Of a stretch of 64,000 nucleotides of DNA, positions 5,354 to 64,000 are shown piece after piece. Below the pieces are notes generated by a model that did not search any database, was not told the DNA's origin, and saw only the letters and a program-made list of their open reading frames with translations. Position numbers and translations under genes: made by a program. Positions within the stretch are counted from its first letter, which is position 1, and the number at the start of each line of letters is the position of its first letter. The DNA is from Amphiura filiformis (lineage: Eukaryota > Echinodermata > Ophiuroidea > Amphilepidida > Amphiuridae). The stretch spans positions 42,300,990 through 42,364,989 of the forward strand of contig NC_092637.1 in assembly GCF_039555335.1 (NCBI RefSeq). Direction: 5' to 3'.

Positions 5354-6060
5354 ATCACATAATATGGTCATGCAAATTTACAATTCTGAAAATTTTGAAT
5401 ATTTAAAGAAGTGTGCACAAAATAAAGTTCAAATACATGTAAAATTGCAGACTCATGTAAAAATGTCTGAATTTGTCTTAAAAACACGGCTTGCGTATGA
5501 CACCATCCCCTAGCCGCTTGTCTGCAATTACAATCACAACTAAACAATACAAGTTTACACACTTGTAGATTTAGTTCTGTGACATCGTCCATTCTGTATG
5601 TTGACTGACGGAAATTATATACAAGGCCTAAAACAATGGCCTTGTATTATGCCTAAAAATAATCTGCATTGCTGTAAAAGTAAATTAGGGGGTCGGTCGT
5701 CCGCTTTACTTTTCTTTCTTGTACGAATATACAAACAGGCAAAACATTTTCACAAGATTTCTTTATGCCAAATATGAAAATTCAAATAGGCCAATGAACA
5801 ACAATAAAAAAACGCGACCCTTTTTTTCGGATTTTAGGGTGGGTGGGTCGAATGGGGCAATGCAAATCTTTTGGTTAGGCATAGAGCACTTTATACATGC
5901 AGTTATCAGGAACTCACAAATTCAATGTACATTGTTCATGGATTGAACCATCACGAAATGCTCCTTCAAAGATTTGTTCTCAAAGAGAAAAGTTCTATAG
6001 TTCTAGTCAAAATAATGTCATTTTTATACACTCGGTCCTGTGATGACACGAACATAGTCA

Positions 6061-6074
6061 AGATCTCTTTTTGG
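6061..6074 (-). promoter_or_regulatory. Histone downstream element (purine-rich)
   Basis: On the minus strand, just 3' of the stem-loop, lies CCAAAAAGAGATCTTG. This purine-rich tract sits where U7 snRNA pairs in replication-dependent histone pre-mRNAs. The histone copy at 14973 has CCAAAGAGAGATCTTG at the same place. Confidence 0.65.
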
Positions 6075-6083
6075 AGTTGTGGT

Positions 6084-6099
6084 GGCTCTGAAAAGAGCC
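6084..6099 (-). terminator. Histone mRNA 3' stem-loop
   Basis: The minus strand reads GGCTCTTTTCAGAGCC, the metazoan replication-dependent histone stem-loop with its six-base stem and four-base loop. It starts 24 bases after the stop codon. It predicts SLBP binding and U7-dependent cleavage without polyadenylation, so this copy was built as an S-phase histone gene and did not arise as a processed cDNA. Confidence 0.93.
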
Positions 6100-6123
6100 G
6101 TTTGTTTTTTATGAAAAGCACAT

Positions 6124-6675
6124 TTACCTGGAGGTTGTATATTTGGTAACAGCCTTAATGCCTTCGCTGACAGCAAGGTTAGCAAGTTCTTCAGGTAGTA
6201 TAAGACGGACAGCAGTCTGTACCTCATAGCAGGAGATCGTGGATTTCTTGTGATAATTAGCTAGACGGGAAGCGTCCCCGGCGATGCGCTCAAAGATTTC
6301 GTCGACGAAATCGCCCATGACGCTCATGGAGCGGCTGGACATACCAGTGTTAGGCCTAGGGTGAACCTGCTTCAAAACCTTCTGCACCTCCAGGTTGACG
6401 ATTGTAATTAGCAGTCGCTTGTCTTTAGCTAGTCGAGAAGCTTCTCCGGCGATGCGCTCACATATGTCTTTGACGAAACTGTTCATGATACTCATGGCAC
6501 GGCTGGATATATCAATGTCTGGGTGAACCTGCTTCAACACCTTATAGATGTGGATATCGTAGCTTTCTTTTCTGCACCTACGTCTTTTACCAGCAACTCC
6601 AACTGGACGAGGCCTGTACTTTCCTGCTCTGTTTGCACTCTGCTTTGCACCTTTACCATATTTTATGGGAGTCAT
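6124..6675 (-). CDS. Two-unit histone H2B (tandem histone fold), copy 1
   Basis: Intronless 183-residue reading frame. Residues 1-37 form a basic tail ending [11 protein letters not shown]. Next comes an H2B histone-fold start ([20 protein letters not shown], helices alpha1-L1-alpha2, through [11 protein letters not shown]), then L2 and the beginning of alpha3 ([12 protein letters not shown]). This runs straight into a second H2B unit ([38 protein letters not shown]) that ends with a normal alpha3/alphaC ([30 protein letters not shown]). Canonical H2B is about 123-125 residues; the extra ~60 is the duplicated middle. The C-terminal lysine of AVTKYT, the ubiquitination site in canonical H2B, is kept. 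In fold 1 the alpha2 Phe of NDIFERI is Cys. A histone stem-loop follows 24 bases after the stop. Relative to copy 2 it carries a 6-base in-frame insertion (RP after KQVHP). No TATA box is evident upstream. H2B homology is certain; incorporation into nucleosomes is inference. Confidence 0.9.
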
Positions 6676-7297
6676 GTTTAGACACGAGAGTATACACGTC
6701 CACTCTATTCGAATAGTCGCCTGGTTATGGTTGTGTGTGTTGTGACTTGTGATGGGCCTAGTCTTGGAGAACAGTGAAGTGCAATTATCTGACTTTCAAG
6801 TGTTGTTTGTGGCATTTGTTTCCTGGTTTGTTTAAGGGCTGGGGTATGAACGTTTGGACAGTATTTATTTTGGGACATTAGAGCACATCAGACATATCGA
6901 ATTGCATTCTGAATACGAAGAATGTCATTCTGATATCAAATAATTTTGATTTTTGAAATTCGCAATTTAATACACATTTTATGGCAAATCATTAAAAATT
7001 GATATTGTTGATATTTAACAGTACTTGAAGTAAACTTTATAAATCTGATGATTTATACTTAAAGTGTATGTAGGTGGGATGAAAAGCCGACGATCAATTG
7101 AAAATTTTGACCTTTCGTATTGAAGATATGGATTTTTTTCCCAAAACACCAAAAAAAATTAGGTCTTTTTGGGAAAAAATCCATATCTTCAATATGAAAG
7201 GTCAAAATTTTCAATTGACGTCGGCTTTTCCTCCCTGCTACATACACTTTAAGAATATATCATTAGATTTATATAATTTACTTCGAGGACTGTTATA

Positions 7298-8560
7298 TGT
7301 GACCGTACAGCACGAATGAGCCGTAAATTCCCTAAATTGTATTCTGAGTTACAGCGTAAAATGTGTACGAATGTCGTAGGGGAGAGCGGGGAGTGTTCGC
7401 CCTAGGGGCAGGTTCGCCCACCCCTTGTTTCTCAGCACTACGGCTATCAGGGAATTTGGTGATGGCAAAATTAGGTGACATAGGTCATTATAAACTTCTC
7501 ATATTAGCTACGCGACATATAGGGACGTGTTCATCGAACTGCAGCCAAAACAAAAAAATTACACCAAAACGTAATTTTTTCTTGCATTCATAATGTTGTA
7601 TTATCATTGATACATAAATACAGATGGTTTTAATGGACATCTGTATTGGGAACATATGGGATTTGTCAAAGATTTAATGCAGTTATAAACTCCTTATTCG
7701 ATTTGTGTTTTGCATACCCCGAAGAAAATACAAAATGTGCACAAGGGGCTCGTTCGCCCTTTTGAGGATGGGGCATGTTCGCCCTATATCTTCCCCAGGC
7801 GGACTTACCCCAAACTGGAGGGCGGACCTGCCCCATCAGCGTATTATGCAAAATATTGATAATTAAATCATTAAACAAGGTCAAACTACTGAAAACATGT
7901 TTTTTTAAAGTTATGTGATATCGGTATTACTCATACCACCGTTTATGTCCTAAACCATTTCTCCCCAAAGTTGTAAACATGATACGTTTAAGCTCACTTT
8001 GGACCCCTACATTTTACCCTGACCCGACCCCTGCAACAAATTTTGTGACTCCCCAGAAGAGAATGAATGCCCTGTGTACTCTTGCTAAATGTTTGCATTG
8101 AATAATGTTATTGTTATGCAATGTTTAAACCTTTTTTGTGATTTGGGTGAACTTACCCCACCATATGGGCGAACCTGCCCCAATATGGGGCAAGTTCGCC
8201 ACTTTGTAAAACTTTTTTGTTTGCTCTATCCTGTTGCTATTGTAAGGCCTATAGTTCTGGGATTGTGGCCGTATATAGCCAAGACATAGGGCTTTCACAT
8301 GGGCTAATCAGGTCATCCCTAACCTTAAAATTGACATCGCTAGGCTGGTCAGAAAAAAATAGGGCGAACACTCCCCGCTCTCCCCTATTCAATGTCGTTG
8401 AAGGAGCAAAGTTTAACAAACTATAACCCCGCTTCTGGGTGTCGTTTGAAGTCAAATGGTATACCATTTTAAAGCTTATGATGTATATTTGTTAAACATG
8501 AAATAAAACAAAATTGACCGGGGGAAGAATTTACGGCTCATTCGCCGTGAACGGTCACAT
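7298..8560. mobile_element. Transposon family G inserted in family F
   Basis: Ends TATATGTGACCGT / ACGGTCACATATA continue to GAATGAGCCGTAAATT and its inverse. It sits inside the right arm of the family F element. Its right-hand 130 bases (AAAGCTTATGAT, AAATAAAACAAAATTGACCG) recur at 55385-55512. No protein-coding region is seen. Confidence 0.75.
7377..8387. mobile_element. Transposon family H inserted in family G
   Basis: About 1 kb with ends TAGGGGAGAGCGGGGAGTGT / ACACTCCCCGCTCTCCCCTA. The word AATGTCGT lies on both sides, offset by four bases on the right, and may be an 8-base target duplication. Just inside the ends and around 7740-7830 and 8140-8200 are further GGGGCA(A/G)GTTCGCC-type words in both orientations. 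No transposase frame survives. This is the third level of nesting. Confidence 0.75.
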
Positions 8561-9000
8561 ATATCAAAAATTTGAAAAATATCAAATTTTTATAATTTGT
8601 CATAAAATTTGTATTATATTGTGATTTAAAAAAATGAAAATTATTTGATATCAGAAAGACATGCTTCGTATTCAGAATGCAATTCGATAGGTCTGAGGTG
8701 CTCTCATGTCCCACAAAAAATACTGTCGAAACGCAATAAACGCTCATTTTGGATCCCTTAAACACTTCAACCATCCAAGCACCCCATAAGTCAAGTGTGC
8801 ATAGCCATTTATACAGCATTGTTACTGGAACTATAGAAGAAAGGGAACCACAACGACTTCGATCGGCCAAGTTCTAATCCGTTTATCTATTGACGCACAT
8901 CTCTTTCTTCCATGCTGGAACAATTATTATGTTTCTGCATGGGAAATAAACAATTAGGGCCTACTAGTATAGAATTTGTATGACTTGATAATTTTAAAAA

Positions 9001-9436
9001 TATGTGACGTGTCATGCCAAAAGCAGACACTTTTAGGCAGGATTGTAAATGGAGAAATAGCCAAAATCTGGCCGGGGTGATTTTTTTCACAATTTGGGTT
9101 TGTTGCGAATTTGTGATGTTATTAATGTTAAAAATATTTTCTGATAGTTTCAGACCAGAATATAACCGGCATCTTGTATTTTTTGAGATATTTTTCAAGG
9201 TATTTCCTACTCTCAGTCTCTCAACATTGTCAACAATATTTTTAAAGGCCGATATCTCAATTTCCAATTTTATAATACCGTAACTTACGAACTCAATAAC
9301 TTCGCTTACAAATGTCCGATTTCATTTGGGAAAACGGCGTAGTGGAGCAAAATATCTCTAATATTTAAGATATGTAAAAACCTCAAAATTGATAACCTGC
9401 CCAAAAGTGTCTGCTTTTGACATGACACGTCACATA
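9001..9436. mobile_element. MITE family I, copy 1
   Basis: Ends TATGTGACGTGTCATG / CATGACACGTCACATA, then AGACACTTTT(G)GGCAGG arms. An inverted-orientation copy lies in Vax intron 2 at 36004-36427. Confidence 0.85.
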
Positions 9437-14479: not shown

Positions 14480-14880
14480 TATATCAGAGTTGTGCAGTAC
14501 GAACTACAAATAGGCAAAACATTTTCACAACAATGTTTGATTTGATACCAATATGAAAATTGAAATATGAACAAGGAAAACGCGACCCTATTTTTTTCAG
14601 ATTTTAGGGTGAAAAGGGCAATACAAATCATCTTTCTTTTTTAGGTGTTAAAGCACTGTATACGTTCAATTATTATTAGAAACTCACATGTCAGAATCAA
14701 CTGAAAATTTGGAAATAAGCGTTTTCGTGGGTTGAACCTTTATACCATCACGAAATGCTCCATCAAGGATTTAGTGCATCCATCATGTCCATGGTTAAAT
14801 TGTCATCAGAAGAGTACGAATCCTGCTAGTCTTTTTATATCATTTAATATGCATCCCTGTGATGACATGAACATAGTCAA

Positions 14881-14894
14881 GATCTCTCTTTGGA
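14881..14894 (-). promoter_or_regulatory. Purine-rich histone downstream element, copy 2
   Basis: Minus strand CCAAAGAGAGATCTTG, matching the element downstream of histone copy 1. The canonical stem-loop that should precede it is altered: 14912-14950 instead holds two TTCTTCTC words around a GGGCGG core. Confidence 0.5.
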
Positions 14895-14972
14895 ACTATA
14901 AAGCAAGTTGTGGTGTGTCTCCGAGAAGAATCCGCCCGGGAGAAGAACCATTGTTTTTTATGAAAAGCACAT

Positions 14973-15524
14973 TTACTCCGAGGTTGTGTATTTGTTGACA
15001 GCCTTTATGCCTTCGCTGACAGCGCGGTTAGCAAGTCCTTCAGGTAGTACAAGACGTACAGCAGTCTCTACCTCATGGCAGGAGATCCTGGATTTCTTGT
15101 GATAATTAGCAAGACGGGACGCGTCCCCAGCGATGCGCTCAAAGATTTCGTTGACGAAATCGCTCATGACACTCATGGAGCGGTTAGATATACCAGTGTT
15201 TGGATGTACCTGTTTCAACACCTTCAATACCTCTCGATTGACGATCGTAATTAGGAGTCGTTTGTAATTTGCAAGACGAGAAGCTTCACCGGCGATGCGC
15301 TCACAGATGTCGTTGACGAAACTGTTCATGATGCTCATGGCACGGCTGGATATATCAATGTCTGGGTGAACCTGCTTCAACACTTTGTAGATGTAGATAT
15401 CGTAGCTTTCCTTTCTGCGACTACGCCTTTTACCTGCAATTCCAGCTGCATGACGAGACCACTTTCCACGATACTTTCCTGCTTTCTTTGCACCTTTAGG
15501 CGTACCACATTTTACGGGAGACAT
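14973..15524 (-). CDS. Two-unit histone H2B (tandem histone fold), copy 2
   Basis: Intronless 183-residue frame, the same length and architecture as the copy at 6124. A basic tail ends [11 protein letters not shown]; unit 1 has [18 protein letters not shown] and [17 protein letters not shown]; the L2/alpha3 junction is [12 protein letters not shown]; unit 2 runs from [18 protein letters not shown] to a C-terminus [15 protein letters not shown]. From the KRR motif on, the two proteins differ by roughly 20 substitutions and one two-residue indel in about 150 positions. I chose the ATG at 15522-15524 because it aligns with the start of copy 1; an in-frame ATG eight codons upstream (15546-15548) exists. 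The acidic-patch region reads [12 protein letters not shown], so the Glu of PGEL is displaced. A TATA-like TTTTATAAC lies about 90 bases upstream. The 3' stem-loop is not canonical, so this copy may be expressed differently or be losing histone-type 3' processing. Confidence 0.87.
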
Positions 15525-15610
15525 GTTTCGAGTCTGTTTTGGCAACACAGTAAGCTACAGTAATATACACATGCATTCGACTCGAATACTCGAGTGGTTG
15601 TGTGAACTTG

Positions 15611-18985: not shown

Positions 18986-21039
18986 TTTTCACAAAGAATC
19001 ACAAAGTCATGCCTATATTTTGGCGCCTCCGTAGAGGGCGCCAAAAAGCCCTTCCTCTGCGTACCGTCTAGTCTGTATTTACTTGTTTCCCCGTTTTTCG
19101 TTCCAGTCAAGTTGTTCATAAACCAAACTTGATAACCCCCCCCCCCCATGCATGCACCATTACCCACTTTTTTTAATAAATTGTTGTTGTTAACTTTGTA
19201 AAACTTGATCAAAATATCGGATAGATAGGAATGATAGTGACGTTTACATAGGCCTAGTATTCACTTTTTTCACGCAGTGAAATGATGCCACTTGCACCCA
19301 CATCTCATATGCACAGTTTATCCCTTAATACCGGTACATATCCTGTGTCTTGAATAGCTATATAGCCCACCAACCCTGTGGTTAAGAGGCTAGGAAATAA
19401 TTCGAAATATCTCATACCCTAGTTTGTCATGCCTTTATCTAATCTTGCCCCACATGACAACTTGCTATTTAGCCCTTAAACCTGACAAAGAGTCTGTTAA
19501 GTGTAGGAATTTTGGAGCCTTTTTTATAAACATGTTTGCAATTGGCTTATCACACGCTGACAATACACATAACTGTTTGGTTAATCAAAACTAGCAGGTC
19601 ATGGCCAGGCCTAATCACAAAGTAAACATATCATCTGTATTAGAAAACTATGCAGCAGGCGATTTACTTCAGAAAAAGTTCAATATAACTACATTGCACA
19701 AAACTAAGTCCATTATCTATACTAGTTAATTGAATGTTTATTGACTCTTGTAATAACCCATGTGTATAAACCTGTATAATATTGGTGTTCATAAATATCC
19801 CTGACCCTGACAAAAGCTAGCAAGAGCAAATGGATGTGTAATTTGTTTACTTTAGTGATAAGGCATCTTGAATACTATTTTCTTCGTAGTTATAGCCAAA
19901 TTTGTTTTTGTAGGTGGCTTAATAAAAAATCCTTTAAAAAGGAATGGGCGCCCAATGTGAGCTTGGTCGTGATCTGGTGAATTTCATGGTGTTTAGATTT
20001 GGTATTATTATTTCTTGCAAACCCGGTGACACCTCATTATAGAAATCAGACCTGTCGAAAGGTTGTAAGAGGGGGTAGCCTTTTCCAGGCACGAATTGGG
20101 CCATATATAAAGAAAGTTTTGCTACTTTGCAACGCAATAAAAACCTAAATGCAAAATGAGATCCTGTATAGGTGGCTCCCGAGGTGGGTTTAAAAATGCA
20201 AAATGAGGTTTTTAAAAAATATTGTTTTCCAGAGTCAAGACGCAGGTATCATTATTAAGCCTCATATCACTTATTTATTGTCGAATAAGTGCAGAGTAGG
20301 TTAGATATAAATATTAAATGTTAGACCAAAGTAGCTCAAAGTACATGTACTATACACCTGATCCGTGAACTTGTCTTTTTTAAAGACAAATTCTTGTTGC
20401 CAATATTTTGCTCAACTTGATCCTTGAATAAATTCAGGGTAATTTTGCATACTTGCCTCGATCGAAACTTGGTCGAAAGTATTTCTATTATGTTCAAATG
20501 CATTGTATAGTCTAGCCGCCCTCTAATTTATATATTTGCATAATTAACATTTATGCACATAGCTTATTTATTATGCAATTAGACAATATGATACATTAAC
20601 AAACATATCATATTAGAAACACTTTGACCAAGTTTCATGGCTTCACGGCCATGACGGCATTAACTACATTAAAGCCATAATGTACGATCTTTTAATATGA
20701 AATTGGTTAATTTTTTTCAAACCTGATTTTTTTGCATTTTTGTAATGTTTACACATGTCCCAACTTGCACCTAATGGAATCGGACAAATTTGTTATCTTT
20801 GTAGGTCAACAGAGCAAAGTTTGACATATTATCATAATTTAAAAATTATGATAATATGTCCTCCTATAGAACTGCGTGTTAAATGGCCAAAATAACCAGT
20901 GGGGTTTCATTCACTTTACCTGGTTATTTCAACCTAAAATGAACAGCAACCCTTCTCGTCAGTTATTACTAATATTATTTCAACATTTTGAATAAAGAAT
21001 AACAACATCAAAATTTGACGAAAATCCTACATTAAGGCT
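18986..21039. other. Intergenic, no gene recognised
   Basis: AT-rich; a C-run near 19137-19147 and a small hairpin at 20817-20868 (GACATATTATCATAATTT and its mirror). A fragment CCTTTAAAAAGGAATGGGCG at about 19930 is shared with about 15927. No supported frame. Confidence 0.4.
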
Positions 21040-21704
21040 TTAAGGGATCTAAAATGAGCGTTTATGGCGTTTCGACAGTATTTTTTGGGGGACATGAGAG
21101 CATCTCAGACGTATCGAATTGCATTCTGAATACGAAGCATGTCTTTCTGATATCAAATATTTTTCATTTTTGAAAATCACGGTATATAATACAAATTTTA
21201 TGACAAAATATAAAAAATTGATATTTTCAAATTTTTGATATATAACAGTCCTTGAAGTAAATTTCATAAATCTAATGATATATTCTTAAAGTGTATGTAG
21301 CTGCGAGGAAAAGCCGACGATCAATTGAAAATTTTGACCTTTCATATTGAAGATATGGATTTTTCCCCAAAAGACCTATTTTTTTTGGTGTTTTTGGAAA
21401 AAACTTCATATCTTCAATACGAAAGGTTAAAATTTTAAATTGATCGTCGGCTTTTCATCCCACCTACATACACTTTAAGTATAAATCATCAGATTTATAA
21501 AGTTTACTTCGAGTACTGTAAAATATAAAAATATCAATTTTTAATGATTTGCCATAAAATGTGTATTACGTTGCGAATTTCAAAAATCAAAATTATTTGA
21601 TATCAGAAGGACATTCTTCGTATTCAGAATGCAATTCGATAGGTCTGATGTGCTCTCATGTCCCACAATAAATACTGTCCAAACGTTCATACCCCAGCCC
21701 TTAA
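21040..21704. mobile_element. MITE family F, uninterrupted copy
   Basis: TTAA at both ends, outer arms with TCGAATTGCATTCTGAATAC and its mirror, and a central hairpin built from AAAGTGTATGTAGCTG and CAGCTAC-type arms with GCCGACGATCAATTGAAAAT. This copy defines the 665-base length of the family. Confidence 0.88.
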
Positions 21705-22019
21705 AGCCATATTATAACATTTCTGTAAAAATAGATTAGTATTTATTTTCGATAAAATGTTAGCTTTTAATATCAGATATGTCCCTATTTAATTTTGAGC
21801 CGGACAAATGAGGCAAAGCAAAGAAAATAGGAATTTACTACTAGCGCCAATGCATGTTACTCCAGCGGTTGTAATACGGTACGACCCTCTGATGGGGGTG
21901 TGTCCCGCACGCCGTGTACGTACTCTGTTATCGCATACACGTGTTCGACAAATATTTCCATCGTAATAATAAAACGACGGTTCCAGCGTTTTATTCAAAA
22001 TCGCGGATTTTGACAAATC

Positions 22020-23998: not shown

Positions 23999-24759
23999 TT
24001 AAGGGATCTGGAATGAGCTTAAAGTGTATGTAGCTGGGAGGAAAAGCCGACGATCAATTGAAAATTTTGACCTTTCATATAGAAGATATGGATTTTTTTC
24101 CCAAAAAGACCTAATTTTGTTGGTGTTTGGGGGAAAAAATCCATATCTTCAATACGAAAGGTCAAATTTTTCAATTGATCGTCGGCTTTTCATCCCACCT
24201 ACATGTATATACACTTTAAGTATAAATCATCAGATTTATAAAGTTTACTTCGAGTACTGTTAAATATCAAAATATCAATTTTAATCATTTGCCATAAAAT
24301 GTGTATTACATTGCGAATTTCAAAAAATCAAAATTATTTGATATCAGAAGGACATTCTTCGTATTCATAATGCAATTCGATATGTCTGATATGCTCTAAT
24401 GTCCCACAATAAATACTGTCCAAACGTTCATACCTCATACCTCAAGGGAAAAAATCCATATCTTCAATACGAAAGGTCAAATTTTTCAATTGATCGTCGG
24501 CTTTTCATCCCACCTACATGTATACACTTTAAGTATAAATCATCAGATTTATAAAGTTTACTTCGAGTACTGTTAAATATCAAAAATATTAATTTTTAAT
24601 CATTTGCCATAAAATGTGTATTACATTGCGAATTTCAAAAATCAAAATTATTTGATATCAGAATGACATTCTTCGTATTCATAATGCAATTCGATATGTC
24701 TGATATGCTCTAATGTCCCACAATAAATACTGTCCAAACGTTCATACCTCATCCCTTAA
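23999..24759. mobile_element. MITE family F with internal tandem duplication
   Basis: TTAA at both ends. The left arm is shortened (AAGGGATCTGGAATGAGC then directly AAAGTGTATG). The right arm, starting GGGAAAAAATCCATATCTTC at about 24131, is repeated as a second ~315-base block from about 24446, each ending TGTCCAAACGTTCATACCTC. Confidence 0.85.
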
Positions 24760-25138
24760 TCATCATCATGCATCATCCCGCCCACTCATACTAGTAGTAG
24801 GTCTTATTAGGCTCTTGCATGCATTTACGCATATCCTGAAAATTATTTATTCAATTTAGCAACGAATTGCATTTATCTTTTGCAACTATAATATACTCAT
24901 ACGAATTAGATCAACGAGGTTTTCAAACATTAACTATGCAATAAAACATAATAAAACTCCATTATCACTGTGTTTGCTTATTCTGCGCCAGGTTTGAGAA
25001 TTCTTCCACTTACAATCTCTTTTACCCAAACATCGATTATTATGTCTTTATCTTTAATGATAATTGCTCCATCTCCGCAAATTGCCTCTAATACTTATTT
25101 AACCTCCGACGCGATTTCAAACTCCACTATAACCACGC
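24760..25138. other. Intergenic, nothing recognised
   Basis: AT-rich; a CATCATCATGCATCATC stretch near 24761. A 92-codon frame begins here, but its composition and overlap with repeat J argue against a gene. Confidence 0.4.
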
Positions 25139-30618: not shown

Positions 30619-36628
<6,010 letters not shown>

Positions 36629-63460: not shown

Positions 63461-64000
63461 TGTTTCAGTTTCAGTTTCTGTTGTCGTCGGTAGGGTAGAC
63501 AAATTGTCCACATTTCGCCAACTTCATTAGAGTATTTATTGACTTGACGCGCTTGCAGGAATTTAACTTGAGAACTTCTAACAATTGTTCAGTTTTTGTT
63601 TAAAAATGTCTAATGTGGTTGCTGCTGTGACTTCCCCAGGTAGCTTGTTCCATTCTGGGATTGTTCGATTGAAGTATGAAAACTTGTTGATATTGAGTCT
63701 GGTGTGCCGTCTTTGGTATTTATGAAGATGGCTTCTCCTGGTTCTGGTGACTTGTGCAGGAATCAGATAATCCTCGCTCTTGACCCCGACCACGACCAGT
63801 CCATTCGAAATTTTATACATCATTGTAAGTCTATCATTCTTTCTTCTTTTTTCTAATGTTTCCCAGTTCAATTTAGTTAACATATCTGTGACACTGCTGT
63901 ACATTGTATTTGCTAAAGTTCCGGCTACAAAATCTGGCTGCTCTCCTCTGCACCATTTCGATTCTGTGCTTATGTATTTGGGTATGGGGGTCCCAAACAA
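63461..64000 (-). mobile_element. LINE 3' end (reverse transcriptase C-terminus), runs off the window
   Basis: A minus-strand frame from the window edge to a stop at 63578 encodes the C-terminal region of a CR1/jockey-type non-LTR reverse transcriptase: SSVTDMLTKLNWETLEKRR, LTMMYKISNGL, SYFNRTIPEWNKLPGEV, LDIFKQKL. A ~95-base 3' UTR follows, ending in GAAACTGAAACTGAAAC, the kind of short tandem tail typical of such LINEs. The visible part of the frame is open. Confidence 0.85.

Follow-up and report, generated by a model that had tools for sequence, protein, structure and literature searches.

A putative lineage-specific H2B variant family with a repeated central block in the brittle star Amphiura filiformis

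A 64 kb stretch of the genome of the brittle star Amphiura filiformis, hereafter the window, carries on its minus strand, at 6124–6675, a 183-codon open reading frame (ORF) that runs from ATG to stop without interruption and encodes a single histone H2B in which a central stretch of about 54 codons, reaching from the latter half of alpha1 to the beginning of alpha3, is repeated in tandem and in frame (we take it to span K43 to Q95 in human H2B numbering). A second intact copy, not noticed in the earlier sequence-only reading of this DNA, lies at 14973–15524 on the same strand, and both copies (A and B, respectively) have stayed open with low ratios of nonsynonymous to synonymous substitution (dN/dS) in fold and linker. 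We favour the interpretation, at a probability of roughly 0.55, that the pair represents a lineage-specific A. filiformis H2B variant family in which a complete C-terminal histone fold is preceded by an N-terminal half-fold. Histones being among the most conserved proteins, a doubled core that looks preserved by selection is surprising, and an H2B core doubled and selected in two animal genes offers a natural test of how far the histone fold can be rearranged.

By sequence the protein is a core histone of the H2B type, having both a histone fold and an H2B match: Pfam Histone (PF00125) matches two stretches of it, with E values of 2e-24 and 2.3e-25 for the two copies, and H2B chains are the top matches among solved sequences (best 60 of 178). 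Copy A holds a nucleotide repeat (6257–6350 and 6425–6518; 94 nt, 79% identical) spaced by 168 nt; the period is 162 nt in copy B, A holding a 6-nt insert. When the copy A protein was cut at residue 94, its two halves aligned with a score of 125, a likeness that is not due to chance because it exceeds every score obtained from 1,000 shuffles (maximum 47), and copy B gave 157 against a shuffle maximum of 48. The units within each chain are 69–72% identical and are encoded by one uninterrupted ORF; a unit identity of 0.19 for copy A is an ungapped-window value, which becomes 0.69 once its 2-residue insert is omitted. The sequence-only reading had described an intact 183-residue frame with H2B motifs repeated in order, one basic tail and one alphaC, and all of this is seen in the sequence and alignments.

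Its further claim, that the chain contains two whole H2B histone-fold units, is not supported. Aligned with the A. filiformis singlet H2B P0062, the first half comprises the tail, alpha1 and alpha2 and ends at residue 83 in copy A and 89 in copy B, ahead of the cut, and the second half aligns from near KVLKQVH, in the second half of alpha1, through alpha2, alpha3 and alphaC. The chain has a single basic tail, a single alphaC, two alpha1C-L1-alpha2 blocks and one junction segment. In the alignments this lone segment, IVN-x-EV-x-KVLKQVH, lies between the alpha2 blocks, where alpha3 of the first unit and alpha1 of the second would both be expected, a composition that would amount to some one and a half folds. 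The junction helix has one hydrophobic face aligned to both roles, so the chain is unlikely to form two complete folds simultaneously, and we reject that reading on the alignment and the helix count, with which the weak structure models concur. The fusion of two whole neighbouring H2B genes is likewise rejected, since neither a further tail nor a further alphaC stands at the junction, as is a mis-annotated spliced fusion, in which a predicted intron joins separate ORFs, by the single uninterrupted ORF of both copies. An intramolecular handshake between the units appears unlikely, given that a helix of 14–17 residues could hardly stay in place and also return to the adjacent L1 site.

Neither of the two low-confidence AlphaFold models shows an additional helix between the alpha2 blocks, and in both the C-terminal 90–95 residues superpose on a whole H2B. 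The alignment of this C-terminal part to H2B starts at the end of alpha1 and extends as far as the C-terminus; at low model confidence the part shows the order alpha1-alpha2-alpha3 followed by the H2B-specific alphaC. Two alternative alignments that split singlets across both units were left out of the modelling, and near-full-chain structure matches to 2rvq, 1kx5, 8xjv_Ac and 7u0g were disregarded, their root-mean-square deviations being 10–23 Å.

Comparison of copies A and B gives a dS of 0.433 and a dN of 0.058 over the fold, or a dN/dS of 0.134 (bootstrap 0.067–0.25), with regional values of 0.063 for unit 1, 0.081 for the linker, 0.172 for unit 2, 0.289 for alphaC and 1.62 for the tail. 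Fisher tests, computed on rounded counts, distinguish the ratio from 1 for the fold (p = 2e-11), unit 1 (p = 2e-5), unit 2 (p = 3e-4) and the linker (p = 0.001), the 14 codons of which are constrained in their own right. Preservation of the linker by conversion from singlet genes is unlikely because its first part differs from the canonical L2; its REV end is also present in singlet alpha3. The coding sequences are identical at 465 of 546 sites with two 6-nt indels and no frameshift, and the 3' flanks at 271 of 391 sites with 11 indels (1–30 nt long), so that two coding indels were observed where 15.4 would be expected at the flank rate (P for two or fewer, 2.9e-5); the 5' flank, of which no more than 15 sites could be aligned (8 of them identical, plus one 6-nt indel), was left out of this comparison. 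Under simulated neutral substitution, the frame stayed open in 31/2000 and 30/2000 runs at 30%, and in 183/2000 and 192/2000 runs at 15%. The low dN/dS of the fold, the constrained linker and the paucity of coding indels make the duplicated H2B look like a maintained gene family. A low dN/dS and a related copy free of stop codons had been named beforehand as a test, and paralogue B, intact and with a fold dN/dS of 0.13, bears it out.

The copies are 79% identical, their ORFs are separated by 8.3 kb and, given a dS of about 0.4, they are diverged paralogues rather than alleles or an uncollapsed haplotype. A gene duplication produced the two copies and, since the junction is common to both, the internal duplication came before the gene duplication, barring gene conversion. 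The dS between unit 1 and unit 2 is 0.41 within A and 0.77 within B, and between the copies it is 0.36 and 0.54, samples too small to date these events. Copy A is followed, 19 nt past its stop and on the same strand, by a histone 3' stem-loop (RF00032) scoring 38 bits, above the gathering score of 34. For copy B there was no RF00032 match up to an E value of 1, and the downstream purine-rich element is still there. The retention of histone 3' processing signals, as previously claimed, thus holds for copy A and fails for the stem-loop of copy B, and only copy A combines an uninterrupted ORF with a stem-loop after the stop, as in replication-dependent histone genes.

We propose that the C-terminal 90–95 residues would fold as a complete H2B, with the junction helix serving as alpha1 and followed by alpha2, alpha3 and alphaC, and that this fold could join a single H2A and become part of the octamer. 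The alpha1-alpha2 half-fold on the N-terminal side would be an additional module lying after the basic tail and ahead of that fold. In H2B, the basic stretch just before alpha1 runs between the DNA gyres; because this stretch now lies about 55 residues upstream of the fold instead of just ahead of alpha1, the extra half-fold should change how stable the nucleosome is or provide a further contact surface. Copy A, given its stem-loop, is probably made in S phase, and copy B, in which the stem-loop is no longer recognisable, probably is not.

Positions in the two units were compared with a reference of 83 singlets, selected from 111 proteins by a pattern covering positions 43–53, so that invariance there, D51, T52 and G53 included, follows from the choice. 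Both copies carry G38D, T52I, G53D and F70C in unit 1 and 12 common changes in unit 2 (D51N, A58S, I61V, S64D, D68E, E76D, H82N, N84H, S91C, G104E, K108N and T115I); position 82 varies among the singlets themselves. Copy A alone is changed at Y40, N67, position 82 and Y83 in unit 1 and at I54 and N67 in unit 2, copy B alone at S56, T88, Q95, E105 and T119 in unit 2, and N63, R92, L101, H109 and K125 are changed in both copies, differently in each. K120 and E113 are retained in A and B. This pattern is that of a constrained yet fast-moving variant and not of a bulk histone.

Several observations weigh against the favoured interpretation. Some of the changes fall at near-invariant positions, which would be unusual for a nucleosomal H2B: in unit 1 of copy A, Y40 (83/83 singlets) is replaced by H, N67 (82/83) by K and Y83 (82/83) by D; in unit 2 of both copies, R92 (83/83) is replaced by Y or H and H109 (83/83) by L or R; and in unit 2 of copy B, T88, Q95 and E105 (83/83 each) are replaced by R, E and G. 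The tail shows no sign of constraint (p = 0.32), and alphaC taken alone is not significant (p = 0.11). The AlphaFold models have a mean pLDDT (predicted local distance difference test) of 47.1 and 48.8 and a pTM (predicted template-modelling score) of 0.39 and 0.28, and their alignments take database double-H2B proteins, probably gene-model artefacts, as relatives of the second unit. The models also disagree at the junction, with a helix at residues 88–104 in A and one helix spanning 60–106 in B; given this disagreement and their low confidence, the fold is not established.

The same hydrophobic positions of the junction helix could, by alignment, serve as alpha3 or as alpha1, and the junction contains matches to both REVQ in alpha3 and KVLKQVH in alpha1. 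It is therefore conceivable, if on balance unlikely, that the N-terminal unit is the working H2B, with the junction helix as its alpha3 and the second alpha2-alpha3-alphaC as an appendage, or that the chain switches between the two registers. Such an arrangement would fit the lower dN/dS of unit 1 (0.063 versus 0.172) and would leave the basic stretch adjoining alpha1. Both low-confidence models, however, put the C-terminal register on H2B, hydrophobic residues stand in place of the L2 of unit 1, and unit 1 of copy A has lost Tyr83, which is present in 82/83 singlets. In H2B, Tyr83 contacts H4. We likewise hold it doubtful that a fold block has here, for the first time among eukaryotic core histones, been repeated and maintained in a 'one-and-a-half' H2B whose two units share a helix and which either binds two H2A or switches between two alternative registers; if that were so, the chain would give brittle-star chromatin a covalently extended dimer.

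The substitutions at near-invariant positions and the lost stem-loop of copy B, together with the lack of any relative with the A/B junction among the matches listed, would also be compatible with a decaying by-product of histone gene turnover whose copies stayed open for a time and are now drifting; a fold dN/dS of 0.13, a constrained linker and 2 in-frame indels against 15 expected make this improbable. Most of alpha2 is retained in both units and both are under purifying selection, as might be expected if one chain paired with two H2A and so linked two H2A-H2B dimers or two nucleosomes, but this would require two helices where one is present, with the same residues packing on both alpha2 helices, and we give such bridging little credence. 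An assembly or sequencing artefact is barely credible: the assembly was built on nanopore reads, according to PMC11310086, yet the two copies are diverged, share the junction and have periods of 162 and 168 nt with no frameshift, and a single misjoin could not yield both.

We were interested in whether such a chain occurs elsewhere. Among the matches listed from a search over 5.8 billion proteins (best 120 of 7989 scored, the candidates sharing most words) and from a search restricted to the junction (1226 candidates; best 120 of 1222), no other protein has the A/B junction. Its absence from other brittle stars is weak evidence, since A. filiformis is the sole brittle star among these matches. 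In viral contigs, four stretches matched the search pattern, and none of the four encodes a relative. Among the proteins gathered here, two LKQV[HY]P motifs occur in 40, namely A, B and 38 others, the latter mostly from animals and also from mosses, an ENA contig and one PDB chain; this count omits double-H2B proteins without a second motif (P0035, P0036, P0040, P0041 and P0088). Like A and B, these database entries have two H2B units in one entry, but A and B encode units 69–72% identical in one ORF, whereas in 30 of the 38 others the units are alike to 95% or more, and a period of 54 occurs in none of the 38. Against uniqueness stands P0040 (175 aa, UniRef, Lates calcarifer), in which the beginning of alpha3 runs straight into the HPDTG of a second, near-identical unit, and which lacks a second LKQVHP; its layout appears analogous to the helix-sharing junction of A and B, with near-perfect repeats, and it is probably a gene model. 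P0076 (181 aa, from a 1057-base ENA contig) has an alpha1-alpha2 half block, a basic linker and a complete H2B, with units 78% alike, and may be an independent case or a chimera. The frog protein P0038 shows another kind of partial H2B doubling.

Apart from the analogous P0040, the protein and literature searches turned up no clear animal precedent for an H2B-H2B chain, as the sequence-only reading had supposed. A limited search of open-licence literature found none in the titles and starts of abstracts listed; in the two papers there that use 'H2B-H2B', the term denotes contacts between separate H2B molecules, and it is absent from the available part of a review of double histone folds (PMC13088155). 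Animal histone fusions appear to be splicing mis-annotations in the cases examined by the authors of PMC9145170. The main text of the A. filiformis genome paper (PMC11310086) does not contain the word 'histone'.

Canonical H2B (A. filiformis P0054 and P0062 and those of other echinoderms) shares with A and B the tail, alpha1-alpha3, alphaC and one uninterrupted ORF, and with copy A the stem-loop 3' end; it differs in having neither the duplication of the central 54 codons, nor the altered L2, nor the changes at near-invariant positions. Viral and archaeal doublets (H2B-H2A and H4-H3 of Marseilleviridae; the M. kandleri type) also carry two histone-fold blocks per chain, whereas in A and B both blocks are H2B, are one helix short and arose inside one gene. 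In a double histone fold, according to PMC13088155, a pseudodimer is built from two folds of the same chain. Germline and sperm H2B variants of animals resemble A and B in combining a changeable tail with a constrained fold, and differ in that the tails of A and B lack SPKK-type repeats. An internally duplicated H2B was not found in the part of a paper on such variants that was available (PMC8857922), where 'doublet' occurs only in the reference list. Since genome and expression data exist for A. filiformis, including developmental RNA-seq and arm-regeneration expression profiles (PMC5831733 and PMC11310086), the duplicated H2B is directly testable.

Table 1. Features of the two duplicated H2B copies, in window coordinates
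Feature	Position	Strand	Basis and remarks
Copy A, internally duplicated H2B ORF, 183 aa (P0001)	6124..6675	-	ORF list, Pfam match
Copy A basic N-terminal tail, residues 1-36, KRRRCRK basic stretch ahead of alpha1	6568..6675	-	Sequence
Copy A unit 1 alpha1, residues 37-52	6520..6567	-	Alignment to singlet H2B; helix 39-50 in low-confidence model
Copy A unit 1 L1 and alpha2, residues 53-83	6427..6519	-	DNA repeat, half-versus-half alignment; model helix 58-78
Copy A altered L2-equivalent, residues 84-91	6403..6426	-	KRLLIT common to A and B, differing from canonical H2B
Copy A junction helix, alpha3 start fused to alpha1 end, residues 92-105	6361..6402	-	Alignments; helix 88-104 in low-confidence model
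Copy A unit 2 L1 and alpha2, residues 106-142	6250..6360	-	DNA repeat, alignment; model helix 114-141
Copy A unit 2 L2, alpha3 and sole alphaC, residues 143-183	6127..6249	-	Alignment; model helices 149-159 and 162-181
Copy A histone 3' untranslated region stem-loop and downstream purine-rich element	6059..6104	-	Rfam RF00032, 38 bits; fold -10.5 kcal/mol, z -2.93
Duplicated block around copy A	5721..6682		Matches 14497-15531 at 74%
Copy B, intact paralogue of the same architecture, 183 aa from ATG at 15524 (P0005)	14973..15524	-	ORF list, Pfam; GTG start at 15548 also allowed
Copy B internal repeat, second copy, 122 nt	15103..15224	-	Spacing 162 nt, 80% identity
Copy B internal repeat, first copy, 122 nt	15265..15386	-	DNA repeat search
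Duplicated block around copy B	14497..15531		Purine-rich element retained; 3' stem-loop unrecognisable

In contrast to canonical H2B genes, no other core histone gene accompanies A and B within the window: tblastn searches with H1, H2A, H3 and H4 over its 64 kb gave only chance-level matches (E of 3.7 or more). A histone gene cluster may lie past the window edge, 6.1 kb from copy A. An interspersed repeat family of up to 470 bases, with members in both orientations that are 84–95% alike, occurs at 6831–7298, where it adjoins copy A upstream, and at 21039–21705 and 24018–24762. The first exon of a homeobox gene lies at 30619–31212 (+); the ORF at 30619 matches an A. filiformis homeobox protein with 100% identity over 90% of the query, and the spliced protein (P0182) contains a homeodomain (PF00046) and is labelled uncharacterized in its source. 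A long trinucleotide repeat at 31166–31811 is open in several frames (poly-Asp, poly-Ser, poly-His and poly-Met), with no gene evidence. An ORF near the window end, at 63578–64000 (-), presumably resembles a retroelement reverse transcriptase in its C-terminal portion. At 8997–9436 and 36005–36431 an element of 430 bases occurs twice, in inverted orientation; the copies are 86% identical and have short terminal inverted matches.
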